This document shows, piece by piece, positions 2,701 to 9,903 of a stretch of 36,928 nt of DNA (within the stretch, counting starts at the first letter, position 1; each line of letters starts with the position of its first letter). The DNA comes from Microbacteriaceae bacterium PS02332 (GTDB lineage Bacteria > Actinomycetota > Actinomycetes > Actinomycetales > Microbacteriaceae): assembly GCA_029959645.1 (NCBI GenBank), contig JASCOJ010000012.1:1-36928 (forward strand), written 5' to 3'. The notes under the pieces were generated by a model that did no database searches, was not told the DNA's origin, and worked only from the letters and a program-made list of their open reading frames with translations. Position numbers and translations under genes: made by a program.

Positions 2701-3813
<1,113 letters not shown>

Positions 3814-4002: not shown

Positions 4003-4461
4003 TCACTCCAGGAGCGATTGCACCGCGTTCCAGAGGTCGTGTTGCTGCCCTCCTGAGAACCAGGCACCAGCTCGCTTGTAGCGGTAGGCCGTGTTGCCTG
4101 CCTCGGCCCACCCGGACCTACGCACGTGACCGACGGGACTCCCGTTCGCTTCGGTCACGTCCCAGTCTGACGGCGAGCCACTCGGAGAGCCATCGCATGT
4201 CACGACGTAGTGGTGTCCAGCGTCGGTCTCGACCTCGAACCGCTGATGATGATCGAGGTCGGCGTCGCGACCCTGCTCCTGACCGTCGACCGTCACCCTT
4301 GCGATGTTCGCCTGCACGCCGCCATTCTGCAAGGCTCCGGGAGGATGCGTCGTCGTGCTGGAGCAAGTGCACGGCGTTCGAGCGGTGCCTGGCCCAGGCG
4401 AAGAGACCAGGGTCTTGAGGTCGATCCGAGCAATGCCGATGCTGAGCAGCGGGTCGGTCAC
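4003..4461 (-). CDS. Hypothetical protein downstream of the SDP-like locus
   Basis: I do not recognise this protein. From a GTG at 4461 it would have 152 residues and be soluble, with no signal peptide or membrane segment. It has a hydrophilic, histidine- and aspartate-rich middle, a mixed alpha/beta-looking part with two cysteines near residues 30-35, and a tail rich in W, Y and G. The start is uncertain: a TTG at 4512 would lengthen it by 17 residues and no good Shine-Dalgarno sequence is visible. The GTG lies at the end of a 33-bp segment that duplicates the 3' end of the PRC-barrel gene. It follows the PH-like membrane protein gene by 97 bases on the same strand, so it may be the last gene of the sdp-type operon, possibly an accessory or immunity factor; that role is a guess. 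Confidence 0.5.
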   Translation of the reverse strand: MTDPLLSIGIARIDLKTLVSSPGPGTARTPCTCSSTTTHPPGALQNGGVQANIARVTVDGQEQGRDADLDHHQRFEVETDAGHHYVVTCDGSPSGSPSDWDVTEANGSPVGHVRRSGWAEAGNTAYRYKRAGAWFSGGQQHDLWNAVQSLLE

Positions 4462-4490
4462 GCCGGTGGTGTCGTTCCCGCGCCCTCGGT
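4458..4490. repeat. 33-bp copy of the 3' end of the PRC-barrel gene
   Basis: This segment matches 7623-7655 at 30 of 33 positions. On the minus strand it encodes the same ending as the PRC-barrel protein (TEGAGTTPPA followed by a stop), but six codons further upstream the frame is closed by a stop, so only a fragment remains. The copy sits between the hypothetical gene and the PH-like membrane gene. It probably marks an old duplication or rearrangement border. Confidence 0.65.
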
Positions 4491-4558
4491 TCGGATGAAA
4501 GCCGCGCCTCAAGGCCGGGGCCGCGTCCGAGAACAGGTGACCAGCTCACCGAGCGAGA

Positions 4559-5011
4559 TCATGCGCGTTCGGGCACGATCGCGGCGATCACCTGCTCCGG
4601 GTCGTCCGACGTGGCGAGGAAGACCTGACCGTTGTCCCGGGTGATCTGGACGGCTTGTTGTCCGTTCGCGGCCAGGAGCAGGCCCTTCTTGCGACTGGAT
4701 CCCTTGACTCCCCAGCCGCCGAAGTCTTCGAGCGGGCGAACGTCGACGCTCGTGATCGACGCGATGTCATCGCGTCCTATCCGGACTGCCCAGAACGGGA
4801 CCGCGATGAGCCATACGGCTGTGCTGTTGGTCGTGATGACCACCGCCGGAGCAGCGAGCATCAGCGCGATGAGCCCAGCGCCGATGCCGAGCATCCACCA
4901 ACCGCCCGCCTGCGGGAACTCGGCGAGGGAGAACACGCACACCAACAAGGGACCGCCGCAGAGGATGAGTCGCAAGCCGATGTTGAACCGTTGCCAGGAG
5001 AGGATCTTCAT
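4559..5011 (-). CDS. Small membrane protein with PH-like C-terminal domain, candidate SDP immunity or accessory factor
   Basis: The 150-residue product has two hydrophobic segments near residues 10-30 and 36-56, and a third moderately hydrophobic stretch at about 58-76. The C-terminal half is hydrophilic and resembles the short bacterial PH (bPH-type) domains of actinobacterial membrane proteins: a GGWGVKG turn near 98-104, then alternating strands ending in DDPEQVIAAI. Its ATG overlaps the stop of the sdpB-like gene (ATGA, 5008-5011), so the two are almost certainly co-translated. No classical SdpI lies in the operon; a coupled small membrane protein is a natural immunity candidate by position, but nothing in the sequence proves that. 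It could also help SdpA/SdpB mature the toxin. Confidence 0.8.
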   Translation of the reverse strand: MKILSWQRFNIGLRLILCGGPLLVCVFSLAEFPQAGGWWMLGIGAGLIALMLAAPAVVITTNSTAVWLIAVPFWAVRIGRDDIASITSVDVRPLEDFGGWGVKGSSRKKGLLLAANGQQAVQITRDNGQVFLATSDDPEQVIAAIVPERA

Positions 5012-5955
5012 CGGTCAGTCCGATCTGTTGAAGGCACCCGGAGGTACAGCACGAGGAGTGCGGCCATGGAGAAGAAGAAGGACCAGAGTCCGAACACCAC
5101 CCCGATGCAGAGGTGGAATGCGAGCAGGGCTGGAAGGGCGATCCTGCGTGTGCTGGGTCGGACGAACAGCAACGCTGCCGCGAACAGCTCCAGAGCCATG
5201 ACGCCGTAATTGACAGCAACTGCGCCGATGAGCGAGTGCTGCGTCGCTTCGATGAGCCACAGCAGCGGCGCCGGCGGTCGAAAGCTCGGCTCCTGGATCC
5301 AATACCAGAGCGCTGTGCCGTTGGCCCACTCGGCGACGGCGAACTTCGCGATTGCCGCGTTCGCATAGAGCACTGAAGCTTGTACCCAGACGATCACGAG
5401 GACGGCCCAGGCTGTTCCTCGCGCGCCCCACGTCCGGGACCTCCATCCTTTGTCTCTGACCCAGTGGTTGCCCCGACGGTCCAGAAGGAGGAGCGGAACC
5501 AGGAGCAGCGTGAGCACCGCTGCGACCTGATCGCCGCCGTCACGGACGGGGGATCCGATGTTGAGACTCCACGAGACCCACCAGTGAGGGATCGCGGTGA
5601 CCGCTGGCAGGTAACCGCTGAGCACAACGAGCGTGACCGCAACCACGATCAGCAGCCTCAGCGGCGAACCGCCGCCAGCCGTGCAGAACAGGGACCATCG
5701 TGCGGTGACCGCATCACACACCACTCCATCGGGGTTGTCGGAGCTCGAGAGGAACAGCGCTCCGCTCGGTGTCAGAAGGACGGTCAGGAGCGTCGACAGC
5801 GCAAGCAAGGACCGAGCGATCGCCAGCGACGAGTTGTACGGCGAGTTGTGTTGGACGAGATCCGCTGCGCTGCGCAGGAGCGTCTGGCTCGTCGAGCTCG
5901 CGCTCCGCCACTCGGCCTGCACGCCGGTCGTCAGCCAGTGCAGGGTCACGCGCAC
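5008..5955 (-). CDS. sdpB: SdpB-family membrane protein (HTTM-like), toxin maturation
   Basis: SdpB-family proteins are multi-pass membrane proteins needed, with SdpA, to convert pro-SdpC into the active SDP peptide in Bacillus subtilis. This 315-residue product has the family signature near the N-terminus: an NSPYNSS...ARSLLALSTLLTVL block with the following ALF and a C-D-...-SLFC segment. It then has about six further hydrophobic helices, including AVLTLLLVPLLLLDRRGNHW and an ALWYWIQEPSF loop typical of HTTM/vitamin-K-carboxylase-like folds. Length is close to B. subtilis SdpB. Two in-frame GTGs, 5955 and 5949, are possible starts; GGAAG lies four bases before the first. The gene is 65 bases downstream of sdpA and overlaps the next gene by four bases. 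Codon use is less GC-rich than in the nrd genes. Confidence 0.88.
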   Translation of the reverse strand: MRVTLHWLTTGVQAEWRSASSTSQTLLRSAADLVQHNSPYNSSLAIARSLLALSTLLTVLLTPSGALFLSSSDNPDGVVCDAVTARWSLFCTAGGGSPLRLLIVVAVTLVVLSGYLPAVTAIPHWWVSWSLNIGSPVRDGGDQVAAVLTLLLVPLLLLDRRGNHWVRDKGWRSRTWGARGTAWAVLVIVWVQASVLYANAAIAKFAVAEWANGTALWYWIQEPSFRPPAPLLWLIEATQHSLIGAVAVNYGVMALELFAAALLFVRPSTRRIALPALLAFHLCIGVVFGLWSFFFSMAALLVLYLRVPSTDRTDR

Positions 5956-6020
5956 TCGACTTCCACTGCTACGACCTGCTCGATGGGAGCTTTGGTTCCG
6001 CGGAACGCCCAGGGGACAGG

Positions 6021-6476
6021 TTACCTGCGCGCGAGGATGACGTCGCCGCAGAGTGATTGCGCCGCGTCCTTGATCCGCACCCGTTGCGGCTTCAGGTCCG
6101 CACTGCACGCGGATACGGTCGCGGCGACGTCGCAGGGTCGCCACGCGTCGCCGTCGAGTTTCTCGATGACCCTGTCGACGTCGATACCGCCGAGTCGTGA
6201 GGCCCGGTTCAAACCGAATGCCCATCGTGGTTGCGCGTTCGGCGCGGTTCCGAGTTCCGAGCCGTTTTCGTCGAAGGCGACGACGAACGCTTCACGGGGC
6301 GATTTCGTGAAGAAAGACCAGCCCTCGGGCAGGATCTCCCGCACCACGTTCACCGCACGTTTCGTCCTCGGCGCAAGGTGATCCGCCGGTGGCAGGGAAA
6401 TCGCCGTCAGGCATGTCACGACGACGACGACGATCGCCCCGCACAACGCAAGCATGCGAGCCTGCTGACTGAGCAT
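6021..6476 (-). CDS. sdpA: SdpA-family protein, toxin maturation
   Basis: SdpA is the second protein required to produce mature SDP toxin from pro-SdpC. The 151-residue product has an N-terminal membrane anchor (about residues 8-28) and the family hallmark LPEGWSFFTKSPRE at 49-62. A FGLNRASRLGG segment follows near 87-97, and there are three cysteines in the C-terminal third (near residues 115, 124 and 143). The rest is expected outside the membrane. The ATG at 6476 lies six bases after the stop of the toxin gene and has no separate Shine-Dalgarno sequence, which suggests translational coupling. The order here is toxin-A-B, whereas in B. subtilis it is A-B-C. The C-terminus ends soon after the last cysteine, slightly shorter than I would expect for the family. 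Confidence 0.88.
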   Translation of the reverse strand: MLSQQARMLALCGAIVVVVVTCLTAISLPPADHLAPRTKRAVNVVREILPEGWSFFTKSPREAFVVAFDENGSELGTAPNAQPRWAFGLNRASRLGGIDVDRVIEKLDGDAWRPCDVAATVSACSADLKPQRVRIKDAAQSLCGDVILARR

Positions 6477-6482
6477 CGGTGA

Positions 6483-7121
6483 CTACGCGACCGTGGAGAC
6501 GATCTGCACAGCGAGTCGCTCGCGTGCTGCGGTGCTGTCGTCTCCGGCGGCGGCTTTACCGCACCAGGTCCACGCTCCGCACCACAGTGCCACTGAGACG
6601 ACGACTGCCGCGGCTGCAGTTGCCACGGCCGCGTTGTGCACGCCGACTGCCGCGTAGGCGACACACACGACAGCGACGCCGCATCGACCGCTTCCCTCCG
6701 CGGACGGTAGCCCCGCTGGCGCGATGCCTTCAGCATCCATCTCTGCGCGAGTGTGCTCGACGACGATCTGACCGAGGTGCGCCGACCCCCTCTGCACGCG
6801 GTAGACGTCTCCGCTCCGGAGGTCAGCGATGACCGGCTTCAATCGCTGTTCCTCTGCTGCCACCACTTCGATGCTGGCTGCATGGGCCTTCGCTCGGTAG
6901 TCGTCGAGGTCGAAGCTGTCCGACACGAGGAGGTCCTTGCCGACCTCGGTGCCGAGCTCACTTGCCAGATCGCCCGCCCCGTACGCGAGAGCGTCGACGA
7001 TGTCGACATCAGACGGACCGGTTGCCGTCGATGATGTGGTCGTGCCGTACGAGGGGGTGGCAATCATCAGGGACCCGACGAGAACGGCCGTAGCCCCGAG
7101 CGCGGCGATTGAGTGCTTCAC
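6483..7121 (-). CDS. sdpC: SdpC-family antimicrobial toxin precursor
   Basis: This 212-residue protein looks like the precursor of an SDP-like cannibalism toxin. A signal peptide covers about residues 1-26 (basic start, then ALGATAVLVGSLMIA, then polar residues). A hydrophilic, mostly helical propeptide (about 35-140) follows, then a very hydrophobic core from C147 to about G188. C147 and C153 give the C-x5-C that in B. subtilis SDP forms the disulfide between residues 1 and 7; the 42 residues from C147 to G188 match the length of mature SDP. A second C-x5-C (C181, C187) lies at the end of the core. A charged tail (about 189-212) would be removed. GTG 7121 is chosen because AAAGGA precedes it by six bases. 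Total length is close to SdpC (203 residues). The toxin activity is inferred from the family. Confidence 0.87.
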   Translation of the reverse strand: MKHSIAALGATAVLVGSLMIATPSYGTTTSSTATGPSDVDIVDALAYGAGDLASELGTEVGKDLLVSDSFDLDDYRAKAHAASIEVVAAEEQRLKPVIADLRSGDVYRVQRGSAHLGQIVVEHTRAEMDAEGIAPAGLPSAEGSGRCGVAVVCVAYAAVGVHNAAVATAAAAVVVSVALWCGAWTWCGKAAAGDDSTAARERLAVQIVSTVA

Positions 7122-7400
7122 AAGCAGTCCTTTCGTTGCGGGACCGATGCTGGCATGTCTATCTCGCCCGCACAACAGAACATGCAAAATATTACAAGTC
7201 AGGCATAGCGAGGCTGTCGTCGAAGTTGGCTTCAGCCTGTTTGCTGCTCTCGTCGCGATGGCTCAGCTTGAGTTCCGAACCCCGACCCCTGAGCCTCCGG
7301 GCCAGGCCCTGAGCCGGGGACCCATCGGGCACGACGGATCACGGCCACCTCCTCACCGAGCGGAGCCGTCAGCATCTTCCGGCGGCAACTACCCCGACCA

Positions 7401-7622: not shown

Positions 7623-8048
7623 TCACGCCGGCGGCGTCGTGCCCGCGCCCTCGGTGTCGTCCGCACCCGCCGGACCGGTCCCGGCCTGATCGAGGCTCTC
7701 GTGCGGGTCGCCCATGTCGCCGGTCGCCTTGCCGGCGGGGGAGAGCCCGAAGTGCTTGCGGACCGCGTTCGCCTCGGTGACGGACAAGGTGTTCCCGGCT
7801 CCGGGGAGGGGCGCTCCCTTGATCGCGCTCTTCGCGTACCCGACGCGCAGGTCCGTGCCGTCGAACGTGGCGTCCTCGACCGGGACGAGCGTGGCGTGAC
7901 CCCCGAAGAGTCCTGTCACAACGCTGACGAACGCAGCGCTGCCGTCCTCGTCGGAGGGGAACACCTGCGCGACCTTGCCGACCGATGCGCCGTCGCGGTC
8001 CCGAACGGTCGCGTTCTCGACCTCGTGGATCATGCTCTTGGTGATCAT
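7623..8048 (-). CDS. PRC-barrel domain protein
   Basis: The 141-residue product starts with a PRC-barrel-like beta domain (about residues 5-75): an ENATVRDRDGASVGKVAQVF opening, then a VTGLFGGHATLVPVEDA strand pair. This is the pattern of small stress-associated PRC-barrel proteins such as those resembling YsnF/DUF2382 partners. A helical segment (about 88-107) and an unstructured glycine/threonine-rich tail follow. PRC domains bind RNA or protein partners; the role here is unknown. ATG 8048 is chosen by analogy to the family; TTG 8060 in the same frame is also possible, with GGGAG just upstream. The last ten codons are duplicated at 4458-4490. Confidence 0.82.
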   Translation of the reverse strand: MITKSMIHEVENATVRDRDGASVGKVAQVFPSDEDGSAAFVSVVTGLFGGHATLVPVEDATFDGTDLRVGYAKSAIKGAPLPGAGNTLSVTEANAVRKHFGLSPAGKATGDMGDPHESLDQAGTGPAGADDTEGAGTTPPA

Positions 8049-8181
8049 GGGCGTAGTCAACGCTCCCGACCTGTCCCACTTGTGTCAGTGACGGCGAGGC
8101 GAGCCCGAGCGCTTCAGCGGGGTGCTCCGGGTGGGTTGCGCTGCGCGCCCCGCGGGCCTCGGCCTGCTGGGCGTTCGCTGT

Positions 8182-8478
8182 TCAATGATGCGTCTCGTCG
8201 TGCCCGGTCGGTTGCGGCGCTGACGCTTCGGCGACGGCAGCAGCTGCTCGCTCGATCGAGACTCCGGGATGGCCTTCGCGGTACCTCCGGACGTCTGCGG
8301 GATCGATCTCTGTGCCGACAGGAAGCTCGATCGGCTCGCCGGAGCTCCAACTCGTCGTCGCCATCCAGAGCGTGACTGCTCCGATCCAGCCGGTGAGGAG
8401 CGGGCTCAGGTACAGGCACCCGTACGCCGTGGATGCAGCGCCGACGACGACCGCAGGGATGCGGATCAACCTCTTCAT
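8182..8478 (-). CDS. Small membrane protein, hypothetical
   Basis: From ATG 8478 this gives 98 residues: a short basic start, one or two hydrophobic helices (about 5-45, with a YLSPLLTGWIGAVTLWMA core), then a soluble tail with VGTEIDPADVRRYREGHPGVSIERA and a histidine-rich end. I do not recognise a family. The frame stays open upstream to a TTG/ATG region at 8511-8556, and no Shine-Dalgarno sequence clearly decides the start. It is divergent from the SdpI-like gene, with about 155 bases between the two start codons. A role in the toxin locus is possible only by position. Confidence 0.55.
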   Translation of the reverse strand: MKRLIRIPAVVVGAASTAYGCLYLSPLLTGWIGAVTLWMATTSWSSGEPIELPVGTEIDPADVRRYREGHPGVSIERAAAAVAEASAPQPTGHDETHH

Positions 8479-8592
8479 GGAAGAGCAGCATGCCCTGGCT
8501 TCGCTTGACATGCAACATGGGAACGGTGAAAGATCAGCATGCTTCCTGCCGCGCATGGCAGGACGCTGCGGTCTTCAGCATCACCGTCCGAT

Positions 8593-8633: not shown

Positions 8634-8861
8634 GTGGTTTTCGTAAAGATGATCGCTGCCGTGTTGACCGTGGTCTTCGTGGTGTTGCCCTCGTGGGGCG
8701 TCATCGGCCGGAACTCGTTCGTCGGTGTTCGAACGCGAGCGACGATGCGCGACGCAGCGGCCTGGCGGGTGAACGACGTCTCCGCGGTGATCCCCTGCGC
8801 TGCCGTGCTGCTTGCTGGCGGGTTGTGGAGTGTGGCCGCTGCACATCGCGCAGTCCGGTGA
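8634..8861 (+). CDS. Very short SdpI/YhfL-family membrane protein, candidate immunity protein
   Basis: SdpI of B. subtilis is the membrane immunity protein against SDP. This 75-residue protein carries the most conserved segment of the SdpI family: GRNSFVGVRTRATMRDAAAW (about 25-44), between two hydrophobic helices (about 5-24 and 51-70). That is only the core of the domain; the actinobacterial relatives I know of are longer and have further helices, so it may be truncated or a minimal version. GTG 8634 is chosen because AAAGGGG (8621-8627) lies six bases upstream. It ends seven bases before the CPBP protease gene, so the two form an operon. Its position about 1.5 kb from the SDP-like toxin gene supports an immunity role, but this is inference. 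Confidence 0.75.
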   Translation: MVFVKMIAAVLTVVFVVLPSWGVIGRNSFVGVRTRATMRDAAAWRVNDVSAVIPCAAVLLAGGLWSVAAAHRAVR

Positions 8862-8868
8862 GGACCTG

Positions 8869-9903
8869 ATGCTCCGCGTTGCCAGCCCGGTTGCTCCCGC
8901 GCCCACGGCCGCCCAGGTCGACTGGACTTCGGTTCTGATCTTCACGATCCTCGCTTGTGGGCTCGGATGGCTCGTCTGCCTCCCACTGTGGATCGATCCG
9001 GCTGGCTTGCAATCGGCACACGTTTGGTGGGTACTCCCGTTGCTGATGTTCACGCCTTGCGCAGCAGCAGTGATCGTCGCGGTGCTCCACCAACGTCTTC
9101 CGGTACGGCACGCGTTCCGGCAGCTCGGGATCGTACCGATCCGCCCCATCGGGAGGACCCTGGGCTTCACTCTCGCCGCGATCGTTCTGCTGCCAGTGGT
9201 CGTGGCCGCCGGCATCACACTCGCCGAGCTCCTCAATCTCGTCCGCCTCGACCTCGACACGTTCAGCGGATTTGCCGCTCTGCTTCCCGAAGAAGCGCGG
9301 GGCCTCCTGCCGATCGGAGTACTCGTTTTCGTGCAGGTCGTGTCGATCCCGGTCGCCGCGATACCGAACGGGGTGCTTGCGTTCGGTGAGGAGGTCGGGT
9401 GGCGCGGCTTCCTGCTCCCTGCCCTACGACCTCTTGGCAACTGGCCCGCCGTGCTGACCACCGGGGTGGTGTGGGGCCTGTGGCACAGCCCGATCATCTT
9501 GCTGGGCTACAACTTCGATCGTCCCGACCTGTTCGGGGTCATCCTGATGGTCGTCGGAGCCACCGCAGTTGGGATGGTCCTCGGCTGGCTGAGGATCTGG
9601 AGTGGCTCCATCTGGCCCGCCGTTCTCGGCCACGGGGCGTTCAACGCAGCGGGCGGTCTGGTGCTGCTGTTCTCGTCCGCGGAGTACCCGCCTGACCTTG
9701 CTCTCGCGGGGCCGCTCGGGGTCGGGACCTGGATCGTCGCGGCAGTGTTCGCAACGATCGTCATTGGCTGCTCGCGTCGATCCGGTCGTCGCTCGAACGG
9801 TGATCGGGATGGTGGCGCGACGACTGGTGAGGCCCGTTGCGACGCAACCAGTCAGTCGGACGGCAGCCGCGCCTCCAGACCGGATCGAGAACCGGGCATC
9901 TGA
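8869..9903 (+). CDS. CPBP-family (CAAX-type) intramembrane protease
   Basis: CPBP proteins are membrane-embedded metallo- or glutamate proteases; bacterial members often sit beside bacteriocin genes and act in immunity or peptide processing. The 344-residue product has about eight hydrophobic helices and all four motifs: E174-E175 with R179 (GEEVGWR), H206 in WHSP, and H255 with N259 (HGAFN). The ATG at 8869 follows GAGG (8860-8863) and lies seven bases after the SdpI-like stop. The last 45 residues are basic, polar and without helices, and run through a half copy of the palindromic repeat (9866-9883). That suggests the original stop was lost and the tail is not conserved. A role in processing or resisting the SDP-like peptide is a reasonable hypothesis from context. 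Confidence 0.88.
   Translation: MLRVASPVAPAPTAAQVDWTSVLIFTILACGLGWLVCLPLWIDPAGLQSAHVWWVLPLLMFTPCAAAVIVAVLHQRLPVRHAFRQLGIVPIRPIGRTLGFTLAAIVLLPVVVAAGITLAELLNLVRLDLDTFSGFAALLPEEARGLLPIGVLVFVQVVSIPVAAIPNGVLAFGEEVGWRGFLLPALRPLGNWPAVLTTGVVWGLWHSPIILLGYNFDRPDLFGVILMVVGATAVGMVLGWLRIWSGSIWPAVLGHGAFNAAGGLVLLFSSAEYPPDLALAGPLGVGTWIVAAVFATIVIGCSRRSGRRSNGDRDGGATTGEARCDATSQSDGSRASRPDREPGI

Follow-up and report, generated by a model that had tools for sequence, protein, structure and literature searches.

Our analysis shows that a 36,928-base stretch of DNA from the genus Curtobacterium (here called the window; it is the entire contig C33 of a 3.52 Mb draft genome in 339 contigs) carries four minus-strand genes in the order sdpC, sdpA, sdpB and a fourth gene, which span positions 7121 down to 4559. 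The assignment of these genes is near certain. We estimate at roughly two in three (0.66) the probability that they form a four-gene SDP-like bacteriocin cassette, in which sdpC, sdpA and sdpB are joined by an immunity gene, and that the locus represents a diverged SDP-type system whose immunity partner is new. The features of the cassette are as follows.

6483..7121, minus strand: sdpC-like toxin precursor of 212 residues with a GTG start; an N-terminus resembling a signal peptide (by eye), a propeptide and a hydrophobic core
6561..6683, minus strand: predicted toxin core, residues 147-187 of the precursor, with two C-x5-C pairs and a conserved VHN between them
6021..6476, minus strand: sdpA-like maturation gene of 151 residues, shortened by an in-frame TAA at 6021-6023
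5008..5955, minus strand: sdpB-like polytopic membrane protein (HTTM) of 315 residues
4559..5011, minus strand: fourth cassette gene, proposed cognate immunity, 150 residues with two hydrophobic helices and a putative PH-superfold-like domain

A preliminary description of this DNA had proposed three adjacent leftward genes of the sdpC, sdpA and sdpB types in a high-GC actinobacterium, and these are indeed present on the minus strand at 7121-5008, as is the LPEGWSFFTKSPRE it had pointed out in the SdpA-like protein. Profile searches place SdpA over both of its cut-offs (72.1 bits against 53.1 for TIGR04034 and 68.2 against 25 for PF17418) and likewise SdpB (186.1 bits against 178.4 for TIGR04033 and 42.5 against 27.7 for the HTTM family PF05090). 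SdpC matches its profile as well, with E = 5.5e-8 for TIGR04032, though at 32.9 bits it is under the curated cut-off of 99.2, and it has no match in a Pfam scan. When accepted at E values up to 1, TIGR04032 matches all 11 SdpC family members scanned, the window's included, the best at 1.1e-21. Because the curated cut-off is missed despite an E value of 5.5e-8, we label the protein SdpC-like and consider it a divergent relative. The toxin gene is contiguous with sdpA and sdpB, and comparison of the window with loci L022 and L083 gives ratios of nonsynonymous to synonymous substitution rates (dN/dS) of 0.13-0.31 over all four genes, with sdpC at 0.13-0.17. This purifying selection indicates that the four frames are real genes; a reading of the cassette as chance open reading frames was dismissed on the profile scores and the dN/dS values.

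The preliminary description had ended the unit at 5008 and so passed over its candidate immunity gene; the unit reaches 4559. The ATG of the fourth gene overlaps the stop codon of sdpB by 4 nucleotides. By blastn, the window and L083 match at 72.7% over positions 4576-7034 only, which hold the four genes, and the rest of the 10.5 kb of L083 is unmatched. With L022, which comes from a genome of the same genus, the match is a block at 4573-7159 (79.6%). Flanking genes are shared there, and the block lies across a conserved PRC-barrel-like gene from its place in the window. These DNA matches suggest that the four genes travel together and that the fourth is part of the unit. A scan of the operon for promoters and terminators gave 0 promoter-like sites and 1 terminator-like site (shuffled sequences gave 0.2 and 1.3), and an RNA family search of it found no Rfam match at gathering score.

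The fourth protein has no Pfam or NCBIfam family match at E values up to 1, its best match among the sequences of solved structures has an E value of 0.44, and among nine of its relatives only single members match the libraries, with best E values of 0.026 and 0.068. To see this protein in context, we compiled 47 sdpCAB operons. Same-contig repeats were dropped (L026, L027, L028, L039, L085, L087, L089 and L091, each on the contig of a kept locus); the near-copies L090/L093 and L092/L094 remain, so the operons are not independent. Two non-actinobacterial loci, L034 and L035, are included, as is L023 (on the same contig as L028), which is counted despite an in-frame stop in its sdpC. Outside the 47 stand L043, where sdpB and a PH gene were found and no sdpA, and L097, a second HTTM protein of the window's own genome. 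This second SdpB/HTTM relative (C5:9423-10106, rows L002 and L097) scores 49.7 bits, below the cut-off, and neither sdpA nor sdpC is matched in the 8.3 kb retrieved there.

The order C-A-B is shared by 47/47 operons, and the toxin-first arrangement that had been taken as peculiar to this locus is therefore the general one. Slot classes were assigned by profiles built on few seeds, and the counts rest on an iterated run at a threshold of 1e-3 and on profile comparisons: 15 operons have within 3 kb a PH gene without DUF1648, 3 have PH together with DUF1648, 22 have SdpI or DUF1648 and 7 have none of these. In the genus subset of 27 operons, 12 are of the PH type, 15 of the SdpI/DUF1648 type and 0 lack a candidate. 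The window is labelled PH, though a short SdpI-like frame is also present (see below), and L025 is classed as SdpI/DUF1648, though the end of its DUF1648 protein is weakly PH-like (E = 0.53). Among the seeds, three SdpI proteins pass the PF13630 cut-off, while the DUF1648 seed matches stay under theirs (21.7-24.5 of 28.7 bits); one protein, in L024, has both SdpI and DUF1648 matches. A match in L019 from an iterated profile at a loose threshold was dismissed as spurious, the result of profile drift. The PH gene lies directly 3' of sdpB on the same strand in 13/47 operons and on the opposite strand in L037 and L040, and the PH domain and DUF1648 share one open frame in L019 and L096 and are encoded by adjoining genes in L040. 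In profile-profile comparisons, the group of the window protein joins the operon group of L018, L075, L077, L080 and L082 at E = 5.6e-14, the DUF1648-linked domains plus L037 at 1.4e-10, and the relatives found outside SDP operons at 8.8e-43.

Mapped onto a tree built from the 47 SdpB proteins, the PH label requires 5 changes, at least 4 of them forced by starred branches, which suggests that the slot has been refilled more than once. Two points weigh on the other side: strong clustering of the label on the same tree (0/500 shuffles as low), as expected if it is mostly inherited, and a warning from the tree program about long branches next to the group of the window. When the profile of the fourth protein is run against the Curtobacterium genomes, three of the twelve operon PH genes of the genus (G735, G719 and G715) score no better than the weak background and two (G692 and G728) are not found. 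The kinship of these five PH genes rests on the iterated profile and, except for L081, on profile comparison.

In the same search, which covered 67 Curtobacterium genomes, 19 matches exceed 70 bits. Seven of them belong to SDP operons, one is next to an sdpB remnant, four are in lactococcin-972 operons and seven have no bacteriocin gene detected in about 9.5 kb. Most of the 67 genomes also have weaker matches, at about 30-55 bits, which are apparently other PH proteins. The four lactococcin-972 operons, L130 (1460-4839), L133, L137 and L138, begin with the toxin gene, continue with genes for a membrane protein and an ABC ATPase, and end with the PH gene. The two middle genes are the usual partners of lactococcin 972; the fourth-gene relative closes the series in these operons, and the toxin family (PF09683) differs from that of the window. 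The lactococcin 972 proteins of L130 and L138 were identified by PF09683 (38.7 and 29.7 bits, cut-off 22) and those of L133 and L137 by tblastn, and both proteins scanned with TIGR01653 stay under its cut-off. In L130 the PH gene encodes 133 residues, fewer than the others, and a stop is reported inside the match. Among the solitary copies, L128 and L129 share 73% and 66% identity with the window protein, show dN/dS values of 0.19-0.29 and lie in genomes with no SdpA match. Solitary copies of this kind are the pattern expected of immunity genes kept by non-producers, which is not proof of that role. At L136:3870-4837, an open PH gene comes immediately after some 160 codons of an sdpB remnant, with no sdpA or sdpC in the stretch fetched; the locus looks like a decayed cassette that has kept its fourth gene.

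By its position and its relatives, the fourth protein is a candidate immunity protein in place of SdpI. SdpI itself was considered as the cassette's own immunity gene and set aside, since a search of the whole genome gave only a short, sub-cut-off open reading frame 1.5 kb upstream of sdpC. That frame is the genome's only PF13630 match at E values up to 0.001 (relatives scanned have 116 and 123 residues), and the PF13630 search found no full SdpI in the genome. It is followed on the same strand by a protease gene:

8634..8861, plus strand: short SdpI/YfhL-like open reading frame of 75 residues, 25.9 bits with PF13630 (cut-off 28.2)
8869..9903, plus strand: CPBP/CAAX-type membrane protease, likely start chosen by eye; the longer frame 8812-9903 scores 68.8 bits with PF02517 (cut-off 22.4)

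The protease starts 8 nucleotides on from the SdpI-like frame, and the two run opposite to the cassette; they could represent an additional resistance pair in partial decay. Elsewhere in the window, at 2770-3813, lies an nrdF-like gene (by eye) with the SDP operon downstream of it, as at L019:30-410 in another genus of the family, which is possibly a shared insertion spot.

An alternative role for the fourth protein comes from the leaderless bacteriocins. It is conceivable, if rather unlikely, that it helps to mature or export the toxin in the manner of DdE/DdF of enterocin DD14, and that self-protection is due to housekeeping genes of the envelope, to the CPBP protease or to the SdpI-like frame. 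DdE is listed as a small bPH2 membrane protein of 135 residues with 2 transmembrane segments encoded in the bacteriocin cluster (PMC7332713), and DdE and DdF are described as transporters, one paper speaking of both immunity and transport. These leaderless clusters, and bPH_2 proteins reported in Actinomycetota, resemble the cassette in that small PH membrane proteins stand beside bacteriocin genes, and both the SdpI-like frame and the protease are there in the window, upstream. DdE/DdF are reported, however, to transport a leaderless peptide, whereas the precursor encoded in the window starts with what looks like a signal sequence, and no Pfam PH family matches the fourth protein. Export of SdpC and of lactococcin 972 is assumed to go through Sec, which would make an exporter of the leaderless type unnecessary, and the SdpI-like frame is short and under its cut-off. 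The presence of a PH-type or SdpI/DUF1648 gene near each of the 27 operons of the genus, and the relatives under selection in the two genomes with no SdpA match, also speak against an export helper. We thus prefer immunity as the function of the fourth gene.

The toxin precursor itself carries a signature that the preliminary description had recognized in part. The hydrophobic core does start at C147 with a C-x5-C pair (C147, C153), and a second such pair, C181 and C187, had been overlooked at its far end, so that one pair lies toward each end. C147, C153, C181 and the V161-H162-N163 motif are invariant in six aligned four-cysteine proteins. This subtype is found in 9/47 operons, with gaps of 5-27-5, 5-33-5 or 5-27-6, and its label needs 2 changes on the SdpB tree. 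Eight of the nine have a PH gene, and the ninth, L025, has the DUF1648 protein with a weak PH-like end. The C-x5-C core had been expected in orthologues generally, and here the evidence is mixed: the first cysteine pair is C-x5-C in 10 of the 47 SdpC proteins and C-x4-C in 5, and 11 of the 47 have no cysteine in their last 105 residues. Since so few share it as the first pair, C-x5-C marks a subtype, not the family. The structure model of the precursor is weak, with a mean predicted local distance difference test score (pLDDT) of 53.2 and a core under 50, where helices appear at low confidence only; the cysteines would close a small disulfide loop at each end of a helical, hydrophobic peptide. 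Two sdpC-like matches each were observed in the Curtobacterium operons L076, L078, L079, L081 and L074, and in Mycetocola reblochoni the sdpC at L023:5442-6107 is broken by an in-frame stop, while its sdpA, sdpB and PH gene are open.

For the system as a whole, we infer the secretion route, the disulfides, the killing mechanism and the immunity function. The SdpC precursor would be secreted through Sec, and SdpA and SdpB would be required for its conversion to a short hydrophobic peptide of approximately residues 147-187. The mature peptide, with a C-x5-C near each end, would then insert into the membranes of sister cells or rivals, where collapse of the proton motive force is an action carried over by analogy from B. 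subtilis. The two-helix membrane protein with its PH-superfold-like domain would protect the cell instead of SdpI. A role in competition between strains, as first suggested, fits the patchy spread of the genes: counting the window genome, SdpA occurs in 22/67 genomes of the genus (27 places), in 12/299 of a family sample and in 4/396 of a phylum sample, where one of the matches stays under the cut-off. A scan of named genome records for SdpB found 18 loci, of which 16 are actinobacterial, one is from a Gemmatimonadaceae bin and one from Pedobacter. B. subtilis SDP also acts through SdpI/SdpR signalling, and the hydrophobic C-terminal part of SdpC could by the same token be a signal or stress peptide that works on the producer itself and not on competitors. 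We regard this as very improbable, as the patchy spread and the solitary immunity-type genes look like warfare, and the open reading frames at 4003-4512, 7623-8060, 8182-8556 and 8812-9903 match no regulator family. As regards SdpR at the locus, it is these four flanking frames that are free of a regulator match; a genome-wide search for SdpR was not made.

Whether this particular strain makes the toxin is another matter, since its sdpA ends early. The window protein covers positions 3-154 of the 181 in the TIGR04034 model and is the only one of 47 to stop so early; a profile search of the genome sequence reports one TAA inside the sdpA match, and the relatives run on past it. The first three conserved cysteines of SdpA are each kept in 46/47 proteins and the fourth in 44/47, and the window protein is without this fourth cysteine, which is located in the lost part. 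The four conserved cysteines suggest that the main domain of SdpA faces the outside and carries disulfides. The stop also explains why a 65-base gap precedes sdpB in the window, where L022 has an overlap of 10. In B. subtilis, active SDP is stated to require both sdpA and sdpB (PMC5719810). Since sdpA is truncated and both genes are essential there, the strain probably makes little toxin, and production of an active toxin from this locus is doubtful.

One interpretation of these facts is that the locus is decaying: sdpA has been lost, the toxin is not made and the immunity gene alone is still useful. The uniqueness of the stop among 47 sequences, the loss of a cysteine kept in 44 of them, the solitary relatives of the immunity gene within the genus and the PH gene right behind the sdpB remnant in L136 all speak for it. 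The other three genes are nonetheless open and conserved and the DNA behind the TAA still resembles the sdpA of relatives, so that the stop is either recent or an assembly error in a draft of 339 contigs. We consider the odds of decay to be about even. This interpretation is compatible with the four-gene cassette and is no alternative to the gene assignments. By analogy with B. subtilis, the window strain probably makes little or no mature toxin and keeps its immunity gene, and it may therefore be an immune non-producer.

The SDP core of B. subtilis starts with a C-x5-C spacing. The window cassette resembles the B. subtilis sdpABC-sdpRI system in its SdpC-type precursor, whose hydrophobic core starts in the same way, and in SdpA and SdpB proteins over the NCBIfam cut-offs. 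It differs from it in the order C-A-B, the second C-x5-C, the lack of a full SdpI, the PH-type fourth gene and the truncated sdpA. A change in the type of immunity has a precedent in the yitPOM genes of B. subtilis, a paralogue of sdpABC whose antitoxin YitQ is a membrane protein unlike SdpI (PMC6818787). The gene yitQ lies in a separate operon, yizB-yitQ-yitR. SDP-like genes in actinobacteria are already in print: weak sdpABC homologues have been described on a genomic island of Brevibacterium aurantiacum, with no PH-type fourth gene mentioned in the sections consulted (PMC5719810). Among the matches listed in our literature searches, no title or abstract opening ties PH proteins to SDP-type toxins, and no paper was found that names both lactococcin 972 and PH domain-containing proteins.

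More tentatively, and at somewhat less than even odds in our view, the two-helix PH-superfold membrane proteins may be a portable bacteriocin immunity family of actinobacteria. They would have replaced SdpI more than once, become fused in other cases to the DUF1648 part of SdpI, pair with the double C-x5-C toxin subtype, guard against lactococcin 972 as well and be kept by non-producers, of which the window strain would be a natural immune example. If this proposal is true, two kinds of membrane protein serve at one toxin operon and one of them is common to lactococcin-972 operons, so that immunity to two toxin classes could be tested with single genes. The family would also be a marker for unannotated bacteriocins in actinobacteria, and it offers a possible reason why SDP operons stand without a recognisable immunity gene.

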